Source: Clostridia bacterium (GTDB lineage: Bacteria > Bacillota > Clostridia > Christensenellales > Aristaeellaceae). Taken from it: a DNA stretch of 64,000 nucleotides. This document shows, piece after piece, positions 5,493 to 35,665 of this stretch. Within the stretch, counting starts at the first letter, position 1; every line of letters begins with the position of its first letter. The notes under the pieces are model-generated. The model saw only the letters and a program-made list of their open reading frames with translations. It searched no databases and had not been told where the DNA came from. The stretch spans positions 1 to 64,000 of the forward strand of contig JAFWEJ010000007.1 in assembly GCA_017512985.1 (NCBI GenBank), read 5' to 3'. The position numbers and the translations under genes are program-made.

Positions 5493-5564
5493 GGGATTTT
5501 CCGCCCTTTTTTGTATTCTTTTGGCCGTTCAAATGTTAACAATTTATGTCATTCCAGCCAAAAT

Positions 5565-5589
5565 GGAGGATCTGTCCTTCAGATCCTCC
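5565..5589 (-). terminator. Terminator-like hairpin after the PHP gene
   Basis: A perfect 10-bp stem (GGAGGATCTG, loop TCCTT, CAGATCCTCC) is followed on the minus strand by ATTTTGG. It separates the PHP gene and its repeat array from the hydrogenase promoter. The rest of 5390-5642 holds only the candidate promoter and the array. Confidence 0.65.
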
Positions 5590-5623
5590 CGCAGAATATA
5601 TTGTTACCCTAAACCCAGCCTTA

Positions 5624-5654
5624 ATTATTCATTATTCATTATTCATTGTTCATT
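5624..5654 (+). repeat. Heptamer array 1 (CATTATT/CATTGTT units)
   Basis: About four 7-bp units reading CATTATT or CATTGTT on the plus strand. The array supplies the last codons and the TGA stop of the PHP gene (end NEQ). Confidence 0.85.
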
Positions 5655-6347
5655 TTGATTTCGTCCGCAGACGAAATCAAACAGCCCTCCCAGGGAAAAC
5701 CGGTCCGGCTCCAGTTCGCTCACCGCCTCCAGGATGTCCCCCAGATGGTGTGCGTCCGAAGACCACAGCCTCCGTTTCCCGGCAATCAGCTTCTCGTTCA
5801 CCGGCAGTTCCGGCCGCACTTCCACCACCGGAAAGTCCGGTTCTTCCGGAAACAGGCCCAGGTTCACCAGCAGGCCGTGTCCCCGGTTGATGTGCGCCGG
5901 TACCGCCGCGCCTCCGTGTTCCCGGATGATCCTCGTGCATTCCGCCAGGTCCAGGTCTGTCGCGCCGATCAGCAGGCGCTCCTCCACATCCATGGTTTCG
6001 TCGTCCGTGTTCATCACCAGCTGGTTGCCGAAGAAATCCGGTTTGTTCTTCATCGGGGGCAGATGTCCGGAGAAGATCTCCCCGACCTCCACCGCCGTCT
6101 CCACATCCCGGAAATAACCCAGCAGATGCACTTCTTCCTTCGTGGTGATTTCCATCCCCGGCAGCAGGATCAGCCCGTAATAGTCCGCCGCTTCCTTCAC
6201 ATACGGCAGGTTCCGCGCGGTGTTGTGATCCGTCACGGCGATCGCGTCCAGCCCCTTGATATGGGCCATGCCGCAGATGTTTGCCGGCGTCATGTCGTCA
6301 TCCGCGCACGGGCTCAGGCAGGAGTGAATATGCAGATCAACAAACAA
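5643..6347 (-). CDS. PHP-domain phosphoesterase
   Basis: About 234 residues of the PHP (polymerase and histidinol phosphatase) superfamily, metal-dependent phosphoesterases. The N-terminus shows the metal-binding DLHIHSCLSPCADDD and the second motif AVTDHNTARN (about 38-47), followed by PGMEITTKEEVH. The C-terminal WSSDAHHLGD is the last metal site. The start chosen is a TTG (MFVDLHIHS) 7 bases after AGGTGG. An upstream in-frame TTG at 6365 would add six residues but falls before the ribosome site. Its substrate is unknown. Genes of this type recur next to clostridial hydrogenase operons, here with DRTGG and sensor-hydrogenase genes upstream. The 3' end runs into a heptamer repeat. Confidence 0.85.
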   Translation of the reverse strand: MFVDLHIHSCLSPCADDDMTPANICGMAHIKGLDAIAVTDHNTARNLPYVKEAADYYGLILLPGMEITTKEEVHLLGYFRDVETAVEVGEIFSGHLPPMKNKPDFFGNQLVMNTDDETMDVEERLLIGATDLDLAECTRIIREHGGAAVPAHINRGHGLLVNLGLFPEEPDFPVVEVRPELPVNEKLIAGKRRLWSSDAHHLGDILEAVSELEPDRFSLGGLFDFVCGRNQNEQ

Positions 6348-6381
6348 AGCACTCCCACCTTTCAAAAAAATTTATACATTC

Positions 6382-6425
6382 CCCGAAGGGGGTTGAGGGG
6401 GGCAACCGGAAAGCCCCCCTTAATC
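6382..6425. repeat. Dispersed GC-hairpin repeat, copy 1
   Basis: CCCCGAAGGGGG followed by a hairpin AGGGGGGC/GCCCCCCTTAA. It closely matches a second copy at 8611-8653, and both sit directly at the stop codon of a minus-strand gene. It may serve as a terminator. Confidence 0.7.
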
Positions 6426-6770
6426 CCTGCTCTTCCCGGGCAGCCCGGCTGCCGCCAGCCGCGCGCAGATCTCATAGGCGGTCAGGGACGTCTGCAGTAC
6501 GCAGATTCCCTCGTCCTTCGCCTTTTCCAGCGAAGGTGCTTCCATCTCAATATCCTCGGGAATAATGACCGCCGCCATTTCCATCAGGCTGGCCACAGCA
6601 ATCACGTTCATGTGCGTCTGCACAGTCACCCAGGCCATGCCCGCCGCGCCGTGCGCCATCACCCAGCTCAGCAGGTCGCATGTGTATCCGCACGAAACCT
6701 CCGCGCCCTTGTCCGTCTCCGGCGTCATATCCGTAGCGTCAATGAGTTTAATCAGTTCAGAAACAGTCAT
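6420..6770 (-). CDS. DRTGG-domain protein (short form)
   Basis: A 116-residue protein resembling stand-alone DRTGG domains, a ligand-binding domain found with CBS domains and in phosphotransacetylase-like proteins. The N-terminus (MTVSELIKLID) and the core (GYTCDLLSWVMAHGAAGMAWVTVQ) resemble the family, and the paralogue at 9078-9452 shares the pattern of a DLLSWVMA/DLMSDVLAF helix and a late PLTTYTACG-like segment (here SLTAYEICA). It may sense a small ligand linked to redox or acetyl metabolism, which is inference. It is cotranscribed towards the PHP gene. The stop codon TAA is part of the dispersed GC hairpin. Confidence 0.75.
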   Translation of the reverse strand: MTVSELIKLIDATDMTPETDKGAEVSCGYTCDLLSWVMAHGAAGMAWVTVQTHMNVIAVASLMEMAAVIIPEDIEMEAPSLEKAKDEGICVLQTSLTAYEICARLAAAGLPGKSRD

Positions 6771-6785
6771 AGGGAACTCCTTTCA

Positions 6786-6811
6786 AATGCACAATGCATA
6801 ATGCACAATGA
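6786..6811 (-). repeat. Heptamer array 2, the only inverted one
   Basis: Units read CACAATG and CATAATG on the plus strand, opposite to every other array here. It touches the stop codon of the four-helix-bundle gene and carries TGCACAATGAT (6802-6812), the exact inverse of 7188-7198. Confidence 0.85.
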
Positions 6812-7162
6812 TTATTCTTTAGCTGTTTTGATAATAGCAGTAATCATCTTCAGCAGTTCTTTGCAATCAACAATCAAGCTTTCTCCGGCTTTCTCAGAAA
6901 TATAATCTGTTTCTTGCAGCAATTCAATCCAGTATTCTGTTTCACTGGCCTCTTTGAGGGCTATTTGCATTTTGGCAATAAAGTCAGCTTTACTCTGGGC
7001 TCTTGCTGCCTCTCTGACATTTGCTCCAATGCTTGTGCCACTTCGAAGTATCTGTTTCGATAAAACAAACTCTTTTTTCTCTGATCCGAGATGCTGATAT
7101 AAACGTATTATTCTGATGGCAAATGCTTTACTTTTATCAACAATTACATTGTCTTCCTTCAT
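6812..7162 (-). CDS. Four-helix-bundle protein (S23/IVS family)
   Basis: A 116-residue all-helical protein of the 23S rRNA intervening-sequence (S23) family, related to the Avd protein of diversity-generating retroelements. Typical motifs are LSKQILRSGTSIGANVREA (about 34-52) and the following Lys/Ala-rich helix with ASETEYWIELL (about 73-83). The length is normal for the family. Family members are small basic oligomers thought to bind nucleic acid. The gene is clearly more AT-rich than its neighbours and interrupts a series of hydrogenase-related genes. It lies between two oppositely oriented heptamer arrays with perfect 11-bp inverted ends (6802-6812 and 7188-7198). There is no rRNA here, so it is not sitting in a 23S intervening sequence. 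Transfer as a small cassette is inference. Confidence 0.85.
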   Translation of the reverse strand: MKEDNVIVDKSKAFAIRIIRLYQHLGSEKKEFVLSKQILRSGTSIGANVREAARAQSKADFIAKMQIALKEASETEYWIELLQETDYISEKAGESLIVDCKELLKMITAIIKTAKE

Positions 7163-7189
7163 ACAGTCCTCTCAGGAAAGCACCAATAT

Positions 7190-7265
7190 CATTGTGCATT
7201 ATGCATTGTGCATTGTGCATTATGCATTGTGCATTGTGCATTATGCATTGTGCATTGTGCATTGG
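7190..7265 (+). repeat. Heptamer array 3, most regular copy
   Basis: Ten perfect 7-bp units and a partial one, in the order G A G G A G G A G G (G = CATTGTG, A = CATTATG), so there is a 21-bp higher-order period. It lies between the four-helix-bundle gene and the end of the sensor-hydrogenase gene. Confidence 0.95.
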
Positions 7266-7292
7266 CAAAAACTACTCGCGGGTAGTTTTTGC
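7265..7292 (-). terminator. Hairpin containing the stop codon of the sensor-hydrogenase gene
   Basis: A perfect 11-bp inverted repeat (GCAAAAACTAC, loop TCGCGG, GTAGTTTTTGC). The gene's TAG stop lies inside the stem and the T-run is the descending arm. It directly abuts heptamer array 3. Confidence 0.6.
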
Positions 7293-8567
7293 AAGATCCA
7301 CCATCTGCTGCGCCATCACCCGCAGCTGCTCTTTCATCATGTGGATGCAGTCCATCTTCGTCGCGACGCCCTGCACCACGTCCTCCGCGAACGTCCGGCA
7401 CGTCGGGCTTCCGCAGCTGCCGCAGTCAAATCCCGGCAGTTCCTTGTAGATCTTTTCAATCCGCTCCATCTTCCGCATGGCTTCCATCAAGTCGTCGTCC
7501 AGCTTCATCGCAGAGTTGGGCAGGATTCGCACGTCGTCATACAGCGTATACTTGGTCATCATGCCGTTGTCGACGTTCAGGTCCGGGTTCTGGTCCCGGC
7601 TTGCCAGGCGCCGCACGTTCGAACGCGCCACATAGTTGTTCTCAAAGTTCAGCGGGCCACCGACGCATCCGCCGGTGCAGGCCGCGCCTTCAAAGAACTC
7701 AAGGTTCTTCAGCCGGTTGTCCTCAATCTCCTCCAGCACATGGATGCAGTTTTCAATTCCGTCCACCGCCATGGAATTCTCCGGGTTCACGGCATAGCAT
7801 TCGCCGCCGCTCCGGGCCCAGCCCACGCCCAGGTCGGACGCGGTTTCCAGGCTGATGTCCACCGGAGCATTCCGGATCTGGCTGGACAGGAGTCCGTAGA
7901 TCTCCAGTACGGAGATCGCTCCGTCCACAGCGCTCTTCGCGTGGCCGATCGGCCGGCGGATGGCCGTTACCTTTGCCGGGCATGGCGTGATGAAGAAGCA
8001 GCCGATTTCCTCCTCCTTAACGCCGCGGGAACGGGCAAACTCACGCTTTGCGATCATCGCGGCAACCTCCATCGGCTGCCGGACGTCCACAATATGGTCC
8101 AGCAGGTCCGGGAAGCGCACCTGGATCAGCCTTACGATCGCAGGGCAGGCGGAAGAAATCACCGGCCGCGGAATGTCCGGATTCTTCAGCCGCTCCCGGA
8201 TTGCACGGGACACGACGTCAGCGCCGCGCGCAACCTCAAACGCGTCGTCAAAGCCCATCTGCTTCAGGCCGTTCAGGATCTGGCTGATGCTCTTCAGGTT
8301 ATTGAACTGGCCGTACAGGCTCGGTGCCGGCAGCGCGATTTTGTACTTGAACTTGCTGATGGAGGACAGCGGATCCGTCACAGCCACTTTGGCATGGTAT
8401 CCGCACACCCTTATGCATTCTCCGCAGTCGATGCAGCGCTCGTCAATAATGTGCGCGCGGCCGCCGCGGACGCGGATTGCCTCCGTGGGGCACCGTTTCA
8501 GGCAGTTCGTACAGCCCCTGCACTTGTCGCCTTCCAGCCTCACCGAATGAAACCGTTTCTGTTCCAT
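7272..8567 (-). CDS. Hydrogenase-like iron-sulfur protein, probable H2/redox sensor
   Basis: 431 residues: two N-terminal ferredoxin clusters (CRGCTNCLKRC and CIDCGECIRVC, about 15-55), a [FeFe]-hydrogenase large-subunit domain (about 75-370) and a C-terminal [4Fe-4S] motif CGSCGSPTC (about 396-404). The H-cluster motifs are altered but keep cysteines: SSACPAIVRLI, TPCPAK and AACTGGCVGG. Ala replaces the proton-transferring Cys of catalytic enzymes, as is known for sensory hydrogenases (HydS type). The protein is therefore more likely a sensor or regulator than a turnover enzyme. It follows the RsbW-like ATPase and DRTGG genes on the same strand, which suggests a signalling set acting on the nearby hydABC. 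That link is inference. Its stop codon lies in a hairpin. Confidence 0.85.
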   Translation of the reverse strand: MEQKRFHSVRLEGDKCRGCTNCLKRCPTEAIRVRGGRAHIIDERCIDCGECIRVCGYHAKVAVTDPLSSISKFKYKIALPAPSLYGQFNNLKSISQILNGLKQMGFDDAFEVARGADVVSRAIRERLKNPDIPRPVISSACPAIVRLIQVRFPDLLDHIVDVRQPMEVAAMIAKREFARSRGVKEEEIGCFFITPCPAKVTAIRRPIGHAKSAVDGAISVLEIYGLLSSQIRNAPVDISLETASDLGVGWARSGGECYAVNPENSMAVDGIENCIHVLEEIEDNRLKNLEFFEGAACTGGCVGGPLNFENNYVARSNVRRLASRDQNPDLNVDNGMMTKYTLYDDVRILPNSAMKLDDDLMEAMRKMERIEKIYKELPGFDCGSCGSPTCRTFAEDVVQGVATKMDCIHMMKEQLRVMAQQMVDLAKTTRE

Positions 8568-8610
8568 TTGTCCTAGCCTTTCTTATGCTAAAAGTAAAAA
8601 CTCAATTGTA

Positions 8611-8653
8611 CCGAAGGGGATTCTTAAGGGGGCGATCGGAAAGCCCCCTTAAG
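8611..8653. repeat. Dispersed GC-hairpin repeat, copy 2 (terminator-like)
   Basis: CCGAAGGGGATT followed by a perfect stem CTTAAGGGGGC/GCCCCCTTAAG with loop GATCGGAAA. It matches copy 1 (6382-6425) and includes the stop codon of the RsbW-like gene. Confidence 0.75.
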
Positions 8654-9074
8654 TTAATGCGAAGCTCATTGTAATCGTCGTCCCGACTCCGACCTCGCTC
8701 TGGATATCGAACTCCGTGGCGTTCCGTTTCATGTTCGGCAAACCCATGCCGGCGCCGAATCCCAGCGTCCGCGCTTCCGCGCTCGCCGTGGAAAATCCTT
8801 CCGTCATGGCCTGGTCGATATCCGGAATTCCGGGTCCCACGTCCTTTGAGATCAGCGTTACTTTTTCCGGGTCCACCAGCAGCGTCAGCGTTCCGCCCAG
8901 GGAGTGAATCACCAGGTTCAGTTCCACCTCATAGCAGGCGACGGAAACGTGCCGCAGCACTTCAGCGCTGATGCCCAGCTGCTTCAGCGTCCGTTTGATC
9001 GTCGTGGACGCTTCCCCTGCTGTTGTGTAAGCCCCGGCTTCCACCGGAAAGGTCTTTTCCAGGATGGTTGCCAC
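8649..9074 (-). CDS. RsbW-like ATP-binding protein (anti-sigma-factor type)
   Basis: A 141-residue GHKL ATPase of the RsbW/SpoIIAB kinase-like family. The N box is YEVELNLVIH (about 48-57), G1 is KDVGPGIPD (about 76-84) and G2 GFGAGMGLPNMKR (about 103-115). The start is a GTG preceded by GGAGGTG, which overlaps the stop codon of the upstream DRTGG gene. No sigma factor or anti-anti-sigma partner is visible nearby, so its target is unknown. It directly precedes the sensor-hydrogenase gene, which suggests a partner-switch output for H2 or redox sensing (inference). Confidence 0.85.
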   Translation of the reverse strand: MATILEKTFPVEAGAYTTAGEASTTIKRTLKQLGISAEVLRHVSVACYEVELNLVIHSLGGTLTLLVDPEKVTLISKDVGPGIPDIDQAMTEGFSTASAEARTLGFGAGMGLPNMKRNATEFDIQSEVGVGTTITMSFALT

Positions 9075-10250: not shown

Positions 10251-10280
10251 CATTATGAATTATGAATTGTAAATTATGAA
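10251..10280 (+). repeat. Heptamer array 4 (AATTATG variant)
   Basis: Four units: CATTATG, AATTATG, AATTGTA, AATTATG. It ends directly at the TAG stop of the dCMP deaminase gene and lies upstream of the DUF6062 gene. Confidence 0.8.
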
Positions 10281-11989: not shown

Positions 11990-12934
11990 TTACTTCACGG
12001 TCACGCCGGTGATGTGGGGATTCGCGCCGTTGTACCAGTACAGGAAGCCTTCGCAGTCGATGGTGTCGCCGACCTTCAGGCCTTCAACCGCCTTGTACAC
12101 TTCGGTGTCGTTTCCGCACAGATAGCTCTCCACGCAGAAGTTGTAGACATTGCCGTCCAGTTCAACATTGAAGTACAGGTCGCTGTTGCTCTCGTTGCTG
12201 CCGGAACCGTCCCATGCATACAGGAACGCATACTCTTCTTCCTTGCCTTCCACCTTGGAGGGAGCAACCTTCAGGCCCTTGAAGGAAACCTTCTCGTTCA
12301 TATGATTGATCAGTTCGTCCTTGCCGAGCAGCGCGGTCACGTCTTCGGGCTCAGCAATGAAGGAACCTTCCAGGATTTCATAAGTCCCGTCGAGGATCTC
12401 AACTTCGCCGGACCACTCGGATTTTACGCCGGAGAGGCGGATCTTCGTGCCGGGCACAGCCAGCTTCGCGGCATCTTCTTCAGTGCAGGGCAGGTCATAG
12501 GCAAAATAGGCGCCGTGGTTCTCATCCTGCAGGTACAGCTTGATTTTGCCGTCATACCAGGACTGATTGCCCTGGACATAGGCTTCGATCGTAACAGCGC
12601 TGTCCATTTCGGCCTTTACGTACTCGTCGTAGCTCAGCACCTTCAGGGCTTCTGCAGCTTCTTCGACCGTTTCCTTGGCTTCTTCAACCTTCTCTTCGAC
12701 GGTCTCCTTCGCCTCTTCTACCTTCTCTTCGACAGTTTCCTTGACTTCTTCTACCTTCTCTTCGACGGTCTCCTTGACCTCTTCAGCCTTCTCTTCTGCC
12801 TTTTCAGCGGCTTCTTCAACCGTCTGCTTGGCATCCTTGGCGGCCTCTTCCGTCTTCTTGCTGCATCCACTCATCACGATCGCCACAACCGCGATAATTG
12901 CCAGGAGCAGAATCAATACCTTCTTGTTTTTCAT
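11990..12934 (-). CDS. Lipoprotein with amphipathic 11-residue repeats and OB-like domain
   Basis: A 314-residue surface lipoprotein. The signal peptide ends in the lipobox MSGC. From about residue 30 to 95 there is a highly charged helical stretch built of 11-residue units (VKETVEEKVEE and variants, about five copies), encoded by 33-bp DNA repeats. It should form a long amphipathic or coiled-coil stalk. The C-terminal 210 residues look like two OB-fold-like modules (AVTIEAYVQGNQSWYDG; EKVSFKGLKVAPSKVEG). The start chosen is the second ATG, 9 bases after AGGAG; an ATG two codons earlier is too close to the ribosome site. It follows the sugar importer genes on the same strand. The function is unknown; the OB assignment is inference. 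Confidence 0.75.
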   Translation of the reverse strand: MKNKKVLILLLAIIAVVAIVMSGCSKKTEEAAKDAKQTVEEAAEKAEEKAEEVKETVEEKVEEVKETVEEKVEEAKETVEEKVEEAKETVEEAAEALKVLSYDEYVKAEMDSAVTIEAYVQGNQSWYDGKIKLYLQDENHGAYFAYDLPCTEEDAAKLAVPGTKIRLSGVKSEWSGEVEILDGTYEILEGSFIAEPEDVTALLGKDELINHMNEKVSFKGLKVAPSKVEGKEEEYAFLYAWDGSGSNESNSDLYFNVELDGNVYNFCVESYLCGNDTEVYKAVEGLKVGDTIDCEGFLYWYNGANPHITGVTVK

Positions 12935-13005
12935 GTCCATTGTCTCCTCTCTCGTTTCACCGTCTTCGGCAAACACGCGTATAATACATCATCACTGTTG
13001 AAAAT

Positions 13006-14652: not shown

Positions 14653-14690
14653 CGTTGTGCATTATGCATTGTGCATTGTGCATTATGAAT
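14653..14690 (+). repeat. Heptamer array 5
   Basis: Five units (CGTTGTG, CATTATG, CATTGTG, CATTGTG, CATTATG) between two genes of one operon. It ends at the TAA stop of the permease and lies 33 bases before the substrate-binding protein start. Confidence 0.9.
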
Positions 14691-15541
14691 TAACCCTTGG
14701 TACCTCCCCTCGACACGCCCGCCATGATCTTTTTCCGGAATATCAGGAACAGCACAATCAGCGGTATGCTGATCACGACCACCGCGGCCATCATCGCCGG
14801 GGTGTTTTCCCGTCCGAATCCGTTCTCCCGGATCTCCTGGATGCCGTTCGATACCAGGAAATAATTCGCGTCGTAAGTAATCAGCCGCGGCCAGACATAA
14901 CTGTTCCAGCATTCAATCACCTTCAGGATGACGATCGTCACCACCGTCGGCTGGCAGATAGGAATCATCACCTTCACCAGGTACTTCAGGTCCGAGGTGC
15001 CGTCGACCTTTGCCGCCTGGTACAGTTCGTCCGGGATTGCCTCAAAGTTTTCCTTCAGCAGGTAGATATAGAACACGCTGGTCACTGAAGGCAGGATCAG
15101 GCCCAGGTAGGTGTTCCTCATATTCCAGTTGACGATCGTCACATAGTTGGTGATGATCACCAGCTCCGTGGGGATCATCATCAGGCTCAGGAACAGGGCA
15201 AAAACGGCGTTCCGGCCCTTGAACTGCAGCCGGGCGAACGCAAAAGCGGCCGGAATGATTACCAGCATCATCAGTCCCGTCGTTGCCACGGTAAAGATCA
15301 GGGTGTTCAGGAAATAACGTCCCAGCGGCACCGCTTCAAAGGCGCTCGTATAGTTTTCGAGCGTCGGGTTTACCGTAATGAACCGGGGAATATATTCGCT
15401 GTTGTAGGACGCGAAACTCTTCAGGCTCGTCAGGACCATCCAGTAGAACGGGAACAGCACGATCAGCGCCCAGACGACGAGGAAGAAATAGATCAGCGCC
15501 CTGGAAAAACTTGCGCTCTTTTTCTCTATCATCTTTCCCAC
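14690..15541 (-). CDS. Sugar ABC transporter permease (MalG type)
   Basis: A 283-residue inner-membrane permease with six predicted helices. The cytoplasmic EAA loop is YQAAKVDGTSDLKYLVKVMI (about 180-199), which contacts the ATPase. The N-terminal KSASFSRALIYFFLVVWALI and WMVLTSLKSFASYNSEYIP fit the MalG/CUT1 subfamily. It lies 1 base after the partner permease and before the binding protein. The stop codon touches a heptamer array. Confidence 0.93.
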   Translation of the reverse strand: MGKMIEKKSASFSRALIYFFLVVWALIVLFPFYWMVLTSLKSFASYNSEYIPRFITVNPTLENYTSAFEAVPLGRYFLNTLIFTVATTGLMMLVIIPAAFAFARLQFKGRNAVFALFLSLMMIPTELVIITNYVTIVNWNMRNTYLGLILPSVTSVFYIYLLKENFEAIPDELYQAAKVDGTSDLKYLVKVMIPICQPTVVTIVILKVIECWNSYVWPRLITYDANYFLVSNGIQEIRENGFGRENTPAMMAAVVVISIPLIVLFLIFRKKIMAGVSRGGTKG

Positions 15542-19077: not shown

Positions 19078-19152
19078 CATTGTGCATTATGCCTTGTTCA
19101 TTGTGCATTTTGCATTGTGCATTTTGCATTGTGCATTGTGCATTATTCATTG
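19078..19152 (+). repeat. Heptamer array 6
   Basis: Ten units in unbroken 7-bp phase with mixed forms (CATTGTG, CATTATG, CCTTGTT, CATTTTG, CATTATT). The last unit provides the TAA stop of the peptidoglycan-binding gene. Confidence 0.92.
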
Positions 19153-26494: not shown

Positions 26495-26501
26495 AGTCCT
26501 T

Positions 26502-26537
26502 CATTATTCATTATTCATTGTTCATTATTCATTGTAT
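26502..26537 (+). repeat. Heptamer array 7 (CATTATT form)
   Basis: Five units (CATTATT, CATTATT, CATTGTT, CATTATT, CATTGTA), ending one base before the TAA stop of the exporter gene. Confidence 0.88.
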
Positions 26538-30342: not shown

Positions 30343-30362
30343 CTGTTTATAACATACTATAG

Positions 30363-30393
30363 AATTGTGAATTGTGAATTATGAATCATGAAT
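30363..30393 (+). repeat. Heptamer array 8 (AATTGTG form), contains a start codon
   Basis: Four units: AATTGTG, AATTGTG, AATTATG, AATCATG. The ATG of the lipid kinase gene is in the third unit. Confidence 0.75.
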
Positions 30394-31330: not shown

Positions 31331-31407
31331 CATTATGCATTGTGCATTATGCATTGTGCATTTTGCATTTTGCATTATGCATTGTGCATTGTGCATTGTT
31401 CATTATG
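31331..31407 (+). repeat. Heptamer array 9, longest
   Basis: Eleven units in perfect 7-bp phase (CATTATG, CATTGTG, CATTTTG, CATTGTT). The last unit includes the TAA stop of iorB. Confidence 0.95.
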
Positions 31408-33833: not shown

Positions 33834-33870
33834 TCTCTCATTCCTTTTTCCGTCGCGGCGGATCATTTTT

Positions 33871-33919
33871 CATTGTGCATTGTGCATTCTGCATTATGCA
33901 TTATGCATTGTGCATTGAT
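33871..33919 (+). repeat. Heptamer array 10
   Basis: Seven units (CATTGTG, CATTGTG, CATTCTG, CATTATG, CATTATG, CATTGTG, CATTGAT) between the acyl-CoA synthetase stop and iorA, within one operon. Confidence 0.9.
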
Positions 33920-35560: not shown

Positions 35561-35630
35561 GGTGGTCATTTCCTCATTTCCGCAAAGTGATAACGTTCCT
35601 TGCGGAACGCAATCGATGGAACAAAAAAAT

Positions 35631-35665
35631 CATTGTTCATTATTCATTATTCATTATTCATTGTC
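35631..35665 (+). repeat. Heptamer array 11 (CATTATT form), the rightmost
   Basis: Five units (CATTGTT, three CATTATT, CATTGTC). It overlaps the TGA stop of the RluA gene. No further array was seen in 36-64 kb. Confidence 0.88.

Follow-up and report, generated by a model that had tools for sequence, protein, structure and literature searches.

Why does a small gene for an S23-type protein stand between two mutually inverted arrays of a 7-bp repeat, in a genome that holds further such arrays away from the gene? The locus lies in a 64,000-nt stretch of a Clostridia bacterium (contig JAFWEJ010000007.1; the window), and its analysis joins two puzzles. S23 proteins lack a known function, according to the available text of Warrier et al. 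(PMC4990558), and intergenic heptamers have been reported repeatedly with no agreed explanation. Heptamers at an S23 gene are already known from one species, according to the same available text. In a literature search that lay outside bioRxiv and reached few subscription papers, no paper was found that joins S23 genes and heptamer arrays as a general feature. The reading that we favor, and consider fairly probable, is that an S23 gene and its inverted arrays form a selfish unit similar to RAYT/REPIN systems, in which a pentameric S23 protein would bind five single-stranded boxes and the unit would move.

Results and Discussion

The S23 gene and the heptamer arrays of the window

The gene occupies 6812-7162 on the minus strand and encodes a 116-aa protein of the family named S23, 23S_rRNA_IVP or four helix bundle protein. 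In profile searches, the protein scored 107 bits against PF05635 (cut-off 33.8) and 118 bits against TIGR02436 (cut-off 24). PF05635 was its sole Pfam match at an E-value of 0.001, and it showed no Y1/HUH signature. The original prediction placed the gene between an inverted heptamer array and a second array, and both the sequence and the repeat scans confirm this. The downstream array (D; 6786-6811, minus strand) holds about 3.6 units and is inverted relative to the upstream array (U; 7190-7264, plus strand), which holds about 10.7 units reading AATGCAY on the S23 coding strand. The perfect 11-bp inverted repeats claimed for this unit were read directly and are exactly as described: TGCACAATGAT at 6802-6812 and ATCATTGTGCA at 7188-7198 (both plus strand) enclose 397 bp and consist mostly of heptamer and an inner GAT.

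The gene was also said to split a run of hydrogenase-regulation genes, and it does separate two neighbors: a [FeFe]-hydrogenase-like gene (7272-8567) lies on one side and a 116-aa ORF (6420-6770), with no Pfam or NCBIfam match, on the other. It is thus placed between protein genes and not inside a 23S rRNA gene. An Rfam scan of 5500-9000 found no rRNA and four weak matches, none of which reached its gathering score. The hydrogenase-like gene forms, with its 3' end, a hairpin of 11-bp arms and a 6-nt loop (7265-7292) on the outer edge of the U array, noted as a lead only.

The window holds more heptamers than expected by chance, with 57 matches to CATTRTG 14-mers at up to 2 mismatches against a mean of 1.22 and a maximum of 7 in shuffled sequence. 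Tandem Repeats Finder gave the eleven arrays originally reported. A stricter scan gave ten, leaving out a weak gene-less array of about 4 ATTATGA units (10252-10280, plus strand) that falls under its threshold. The statement that ten of the eleven read CATTRTG on the plus strand holds only if related units are admitted. Strictly, AATGCAC/AATGCAT (that is, CATTRTG) is the unit of 6 of the ten arrays, the inverted one included; CATTATT/CATTGTT is the unit of 3 and AATTRTG of 1. By the stricter scan, the gene-less arrays, all on the plus strand, have the unit AATGCAT at 14658-14692; AATGCAC at 19078-19151, 31331-31404 and 33863-33917; AATTCAC at 30362-30393 (32 bp); and AATAATG (CATTATT) at 5624-5654 (31 bp), 26500-26533 (34 bp) and 35630-35662 (33 bp). 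The genome of the window (2.6 Mb, 89.67% complete) contains 74 exact CATTRTG 14-mer matches and 0 matches to the reversed control pattern; a single S23 gene was found in it.

Heptamer arrays flank S23 genes in several phyla

S23 loci were collected from several sources. In the same family, 40 of 150 genomes had a match, and 30 loci from a longer list were used, one per genome and the window's among them. A collection with one genome per species supplied the best 80 of 509 confirmed loci. Further loci came from the window's genus and from plasmid and phage records (14 of 28 matches listed); only 2 records of the phage collection had an S23-like gene. The S23 frame oriented 144 of the 145 loci, the remaining one (L147) having no S23 ORF by the profile used. 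Three of the 144 were excluded for short flanks, at least 150 bp being needed on each side, which left 141, among them the window's own (L001).

A period-7 array lay within 400 bp of the S23 gene upstream in 103/141 loci, downstream in 86/141, on both sides in 75/141 and on either side in 114/141. Control ORFs of the same loci had one upstream in 29/355 cases, downstream in 35/355 and on both sides in 3/355. Repeat periods of 5, 6 and 8-12 occurred at most 2 times at S23 loci. Since some loci were duplicates (L023 and L108 are one contig, and L031 looks identical to L149, the copy in genome G066), the count was repeated after dereplication: 91/128 upstream, 79/128 downstream, 69/128 both and 101/128 either. 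Shuffled flank pairs (n = 2560) gave 0 upstream, 2 downstream and 0 on both sides. The scan found no tandem array in 27 of the 128 dereplicated loci; some of these have boxes separated by hairpins, and a few have weak arrays by eye. Array-bearing hosts include Clostridia, Bacteroidota, Planctomycetes, Fibrobacter, Synergistaceae, Verrucomicrobia, a Chthonomonadales MAG, Treponema, Cyanobacteria and Chloroflexota. The enrichment of mutually inverted heptamers at other S23 genes is strong in both related and unrelated genomes, and the association is real, general and far above chance.

Five boxes and the pentamer of S23 relatives

Array length at S23 loci peaks sharply at 31-33 bp (88 of 175 arrays). 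This length equals five boxes of about 4 bases and four three-base spacers, at a spacing of seven. With about 4 and 11 boxes in its two arrays, the window's copy differs from this canonical form. The window's S23 protein has a four-helix-bundle fold like those of 2RLD, 2GSC and Avd of the diversity-generating retroelement ribonucleoprotein. The kinship with Avd proposed originally is therefore supported at the level of fold, with a sequence identity of 14%. The structures 2RLD and 2GSC have 5 chains each, and the Xanthomonas relative is a pentamer according to the available text of PMC4990558 and the title of one reference. The five-box mode of the arrays stands beside the pentamer of these relatives.

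A second clade of S23 loci mostly lacks tandem arrays (L156-L159, L012, L014, L017, L006, L195 and, by eye, L030). Its boxes are 5-7 nt long (e.g., ATTTCAC, AATTCAT, ATATCAC), with hairpins between them. In L159, five boxes and four hairpins lie on each side of the gene, and the sides are mutually inverted. We searched for such chains with a box grammar (TCA) that was fixed after examples had been inspected and that set no upper bound on box number. In 861 kb of S23-carrying stretches of the genus, 9 three-box, 4 four-box and 6 five-box chains were found, several of the three-box chains being coding by eye. Loci of orthologous sites added 3 five-box chains, and nine second-clade loci added 1 three-box and 5 five-box chains, with none in L006, L012, L014 and L030. 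Five-box chains thus make up 14 of the 28 in S23-carrying material, counting L342 and L274, which are one site in two species. S23-free genomes had 2 three-box chains in 331 kb. Chains of more than five boxes were absent from all material searched, S23-carrying or S23-free. The window's genus is the source of every strict five-box hairpin chain, and 5 of the 14 are from four loci that look orthologous (L156-L159). Second-clade loci outside the genus have about 3-5 boxes per cluster and weaker hairpins, and their longest chain has three boxes.

The loops of these hairpins bear on the nucleic acid involved. Among 75 distinct hairpins, there were 28 GNA triloops, 1 TNC triloop and 3 GNRA tetraloops, and the closing pair was C-G in 58. 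Background long hairpins of genome G091 had 4 triloops, none of them GNA, a number too small for comparison. GNA and GNNA loops form extraordinarily stable DNA mini-hairpins, according to the available text of PMC4686876. Due to this stability in DNA, we favor single-stranded DNA with this strand folded as the form in which hairpin-separated boxes would act.

Together, these patterns lead us to a model in which the S23 gene and its two arrays would be one selfish genetic unit. In its commonest form, an array would line up five short boxes, as many as an S23 homopentamer has subunits. A single strand, probably DNA exposed at replication, would wrap around the ring with one box on each subunit, and the spacer between boxes would be either a few bases, as in tandem heptamers, or an extruded hairpin, as in the second clade. 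Binding at both ends may then mark the unit to be copied or recombined into intergenic sites. S23 is not known to have catalytic activity, and therefore the chemistry would fall to other enzymes. No transposase was among the 50 matches listed by VIA-align, which excludes nothing. The step that leads from the association to five single-stranded boxes read by a pentamer is strong as a pattern and a proposal as biochemistry. If it holds, it gives a quantitative rule for the pentamer: five boxes at a spacing of seven, or five separated by four hairpins.

TRAP and Hfq are ring-shaped RNA-binding regulators of 11-fold and 6-fold symmetry, with other folds and no mobile unit. They would be analogous to S23 in their way of working, as ring oligomers that bind as many single-stranded boxes as they have subunits.

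Gene-less arrays tend to match the genome's own S23 heptamer

The match between gene-less arrays and S23 loci was examined in 50 of the 80 one-per-species genomes, each of which has an array beside its S23 gene, using three copies of the heptamer with at most one mismatch as the pattern. With a three-hit threshold that was chosen after the counts were known, and with hits at the S23 locus itself included, at least 3 AATTCAC hits occurred in 7/7 genomes whose S23 unit is AATTCAC (20-92 hits each) and in 2/43 others (P = 4e-7). For AATTCGG, the same was seen in 4/5 genomes with that unit (17-83 hits in the four) and in 3/45 others (P = 7e-4). The fifth genome, that of L063, had 0 AATTCGG hits. 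The rank correlations of the two tests were -0.50 and -0.44.

In the window's genus, where genome G149 with its sub-threshold S23 match was scored as S23-negative, CATTRTG arrays were present in 7/9 S23-positive and 1/36 S23-negative genomes (P = 6e-6). The exceptional S23-negative genome, G155, has all its CATTRTG hits on one contig, which is probably misbinned since it is 99.99% identical to S23-positive G066 over 15.9 kb (L178, G155:C57:14200-30100, against L177, G066:C6); the two genomes differ elsewhere. At least 10 AATTRTG hits were found in 8/9 S23-positive against 1/36 S23-negative genomes, and any hit in 8/9 against 5/36; the S23-negative G112 and G179 have 8 and 25 hits. An unbiased scan gave 14 arrays per 200 kb in G132 and 6 per 200 kb in the window's genome, both S23-carrying, compared to 0 per 200 kb in S23-free G091, 2 per 100 kb in S23-free G112 and 0 in the 31 kb scanned of G026. 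The two heptamer tests and the genus tests are independent of linkage alone and tend to favor action of S23 in trans.

The original prediction drew an analogy with RAYT proteins and REP sequences. It is strengthened by the tendency of gene-less arrays to match the genome's own S23 heptamer, but one prediction derived from it failed. Genomes G188 and G235, with 44 and 120 AATTCGG hits, were predicted to have second S23 genes flanked by AATTCGG; neither the first nor the second S23 gene qualifies. The units that flank S23 in these genomes are AATGCAG, AATTCAG, TTAACAA and TATTCAC, those of the first genes being one or two substitutions from AATTCGG. Second S23 genes were accordingly rejected as the origin of the AATTCGG arrays in both genomes, none being flanked by that unit.

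Like a RAYT with its REPINs, S23 is a gene in one or few copies between short inverted repeats, and the genome holds matching, gene-less paired repeats. With the exceptions above, dispersed gene-less repeats, partly in inverted pairs, match the S23 gene's own flanking repeats. RAYTs are relatives of Y1 (HUH) transposases and REPs are single palindromes; the S23 protein, in contrast, folds as a four-helix bundle, and the ends of its unit consist of box arrays. The gene-less arrays, single or paired, may be satellites served in trans by S23, as REPINs are by RAYT.

Pairing was counted for 185 arrays in stretches of the genus that were partly picked for holding arrays and that overlap in places (e.g., L163 within L222), with orientation assigned by AATNCAN-type units. 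Among neighbors less than 600 bp apart, there were 32 U..D, 0 D..U, 6 UU and 2 DD pairs, and 5 with no assignable orientation were set aside. The U..D pairs enclose 30-189 bp in 28 of 32 cases and 275-430 bp in four, and the interiors of those 28 are by eye mostly unrelated between pairs. Single arrays with no close partner are common. The interior of a pair sometimes resembles a GTCATTC...GGAGTCGAAGAATC hairpin repeat (L245:1566-1715, L237:3715-3853, L238:16281-16406), as if the arrays enclosed another repeat family.

Turnover of sites and a possible regulatory role

The gene is not fixed at the window's site, in line with the mobility proposed for it; together with the enrichment of flanking heptamers, both outcomes that the original prediction had named as refuting it were looked for and came out in its favor. 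Thirty loci were fetched, one of which (G174) was unreadable; among the other 29 genomes of the genus, the unit was present in 5 and absent from 24. A tree of the flanking genes pairs filled G175 with empty G150 (support 1.0) and filled G000 with empty G181 (0.94) as sisters. The genes upstream and downstream of the site are 99.5% and 97.5% identical between G150 and G175, and the unit is in G175 only. The final ~68 nt of the upstream gene, before the site, are only 88% identical, and because of this drop, replacement with a foreign allele is a possible cause of the difference. At the L237 site, the flanks of G150, G066 and G175 are 92-98% identical and the arrays differ; G173 and G132 carry arrays with other heptamers, and none is seen by eye in the remaining 15 of 20 loci. 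At the L239 site, both anchors were present in 9/20 loci, of which six relatives are filled and three (G000, G112, G172) empty, and the heptamer of both arms changed between G150 and G066. Neither a target-site duplication nor a base-precise empty site was found at the compared sites of the genus.

In filled genomes, the genes at L239:12714-12951 and its orthologues have 3' ends that form long palindromes and border the array pair on the outside. By eye, all six filled genomes have such a palindrome at the end of the left gene and some have one at the end of the right gene, and the empty G000, G112 and G172 have none. Outer hairpins were rejected as a product of insertion, since the hairpin of the L237 site also occurs in empty genomes, and they are kept as a lead only. 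Long hairpins number 18-21.5 per 100 kb in S23-free stretches against 24-44.5 in the others, nearly as dense.

A different reading of the dispersed arrays is that S23 is an RNA-binding regulator, the dispersed arrays being its post-transcriptional regulon, comparable to the sites of TRAP or CsrA, and the arrays beside the gene serving autoregulation, with nothing mobile itself. This would suit the placement of arrays mostly outside ORFs (18/18 array pairs and, by a crude ORF call, 32/48 arrays), the part that the fold relative Avd has in a retroelement ribonucleoprotein, and the resemblance of hairpin-separated boxes to a structured nucleic-acid target. We consider it unlikely, if the strongest of the alternatives, given that the arrays take various orientations relative to neighboring genes and turn over quickly between relatives, that oriented pairs are U..D and never D..U, and that the loops are more often the DNA-stable GNA than GNRA (28 and 3 of 75). 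The repeat-associated mobile cassette of the original prediction is the best-supported reading, within which the protein would bind or move the repeats.

Arrays of one locus are mostly inverted and vary with the protein

The heptamer varies among loci yet is common, in inverted form, to both sides of one locus. Inverted similarity is 0.849 within a locus compared to 0.586 between loci, with 0.584 for direct comparison and a permutation maximum of 0.637. The arms fit better inverted in 70/77 loci and direct in 5/77. The G066 and G132 copies at the window's site have unlike arms (AATGCAG/AATTCAG against AATTRTG). Heptamers also resemble each other where the S23 proteins do (Mantel r = -0.35 over 98 dereplicated loci, 0/5000 permutations), and AATTCAC is common to two planctomycete and three Rikenellaceae loci. 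Linkage alone could explain this correlation between heptamer and protein.

The inverted similarity is also what would be seen if the arrays paired as an RNA stem with the S23 ORF in its loop; RNase III would cut the stem, in the manner of 23S rRNA intervening sequences, and this processing would make the unit tolerated in transcripts. The intervening sequence of Coxiella is a close parallel: the available text of Warrier et al. (PMC4990558) describes cutting by RNase III, a terminal stem of 28 bp and, directly upstream of the S23 ORF, tandem GACAGAT heptamers that vary between strains. Like the window's unit, it has an S23 ORF between terminal inverted repeats and heptamers at the ORF, but the window's unit has protein genes on both sides, and arrays related to its own are dispersed genome-wide. 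A simple stem needs no period of 7, no sharp length mode and no hairpins between boxes; single arrays with no near partner are common (185 arrays, 32 U..D pairs), and some copies have mismatched arms. We therefore regard pairing of the arrays as improbable compared to the selfish unit.

Least probable of all is that the arrays are slippage-prone minisatellites or preferred intergenic landing sites with S23 as a passenger: some arrays are long and variable (10.7 units at the window, 345 bp in L184), and arrays also occur in the S23-free G112 and G179, but landing within an array predicts the same orientation on both sides, and these models are disfavored because the arrays are mostly inverted, have period 7 only and show a sharp length mode, with a heptamer that follows the protein.

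Relation to heptamers and S23 genes elsewhere

Intergenic heptamer arrays, mostly of four units, have been described for GGGAATC in Xanthomonas and GGGGA(C/T)T in Nostoc, with 70 and 75 convergent inverted pairs, and were treated as quadruplex sequences in the available text of Rehm et al. (PMC4692102), which has 0 mentions of S23, four helix or 23S. X. campestris has an S23 protein, Xcc0516 (2GSC), and in Planktothrix (L190), an S23 gene is flanked by AATCCCC/GGGGATT arrays like the Nostoc repeats, direct rather than inverted. The TAACTGA arrays of Beggiatoaceae are dispersed, intergenic and patchy and spread with no evident mechanism, according to the available text of MacGregor (PMC4679880), where S23 has 0 mentions; unlike the arrays studied here, they are direct repeats, which that paper interprets as possible sites of translational control.

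More tentatively, and with less confidence than in the selfish unit itself, S23 proteins may be pentamers that read a code of five boxes in single-stranded DNA. Their genes, the inverted five-box arrays and the gene-less satellites would then make up a widespread mobile class, and 23S rRNA intervening sequences would be copies that landed in rRNA genes. If true, the class would also explain the heptamers of Xanthomonas and cyanobacteria, and perhaps those of Beggiatoaceae, and it would be a kind of mobile element that works in several phyla without a known transposase. The fold is shared with Avd of diversity-generating retroelements; here, both ORFs adjacent to the gene were scanned, and neither is a reverse transcriptase.

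Plasmid-borne S23 genes (L182, L189, L191, L193 and L194) lie in restriction-modification, CRISPR cas, helicase/methylase and DUF1156/HEPN clusters. In L182, an S23 gene interrupted by a stop lies between hsdS and hsdR, and in another plasmid, S23 lies between cas2 and cas1. S23 genes in cas loci were reported earlier in the available text of PMC3936711.

The window contains two similar G/C-rich, hairpin-like intergenic stretches at 6376-6420 and 8612-8655, the first of which scored 24.9 bits to PhotoRC-I, under the gathering score of 45. A 33-bp tandem repeat at 12660-12825 lies inside an ORF (11990-12976, minus strand) rich in KEEAKETVEEK-like stretches.
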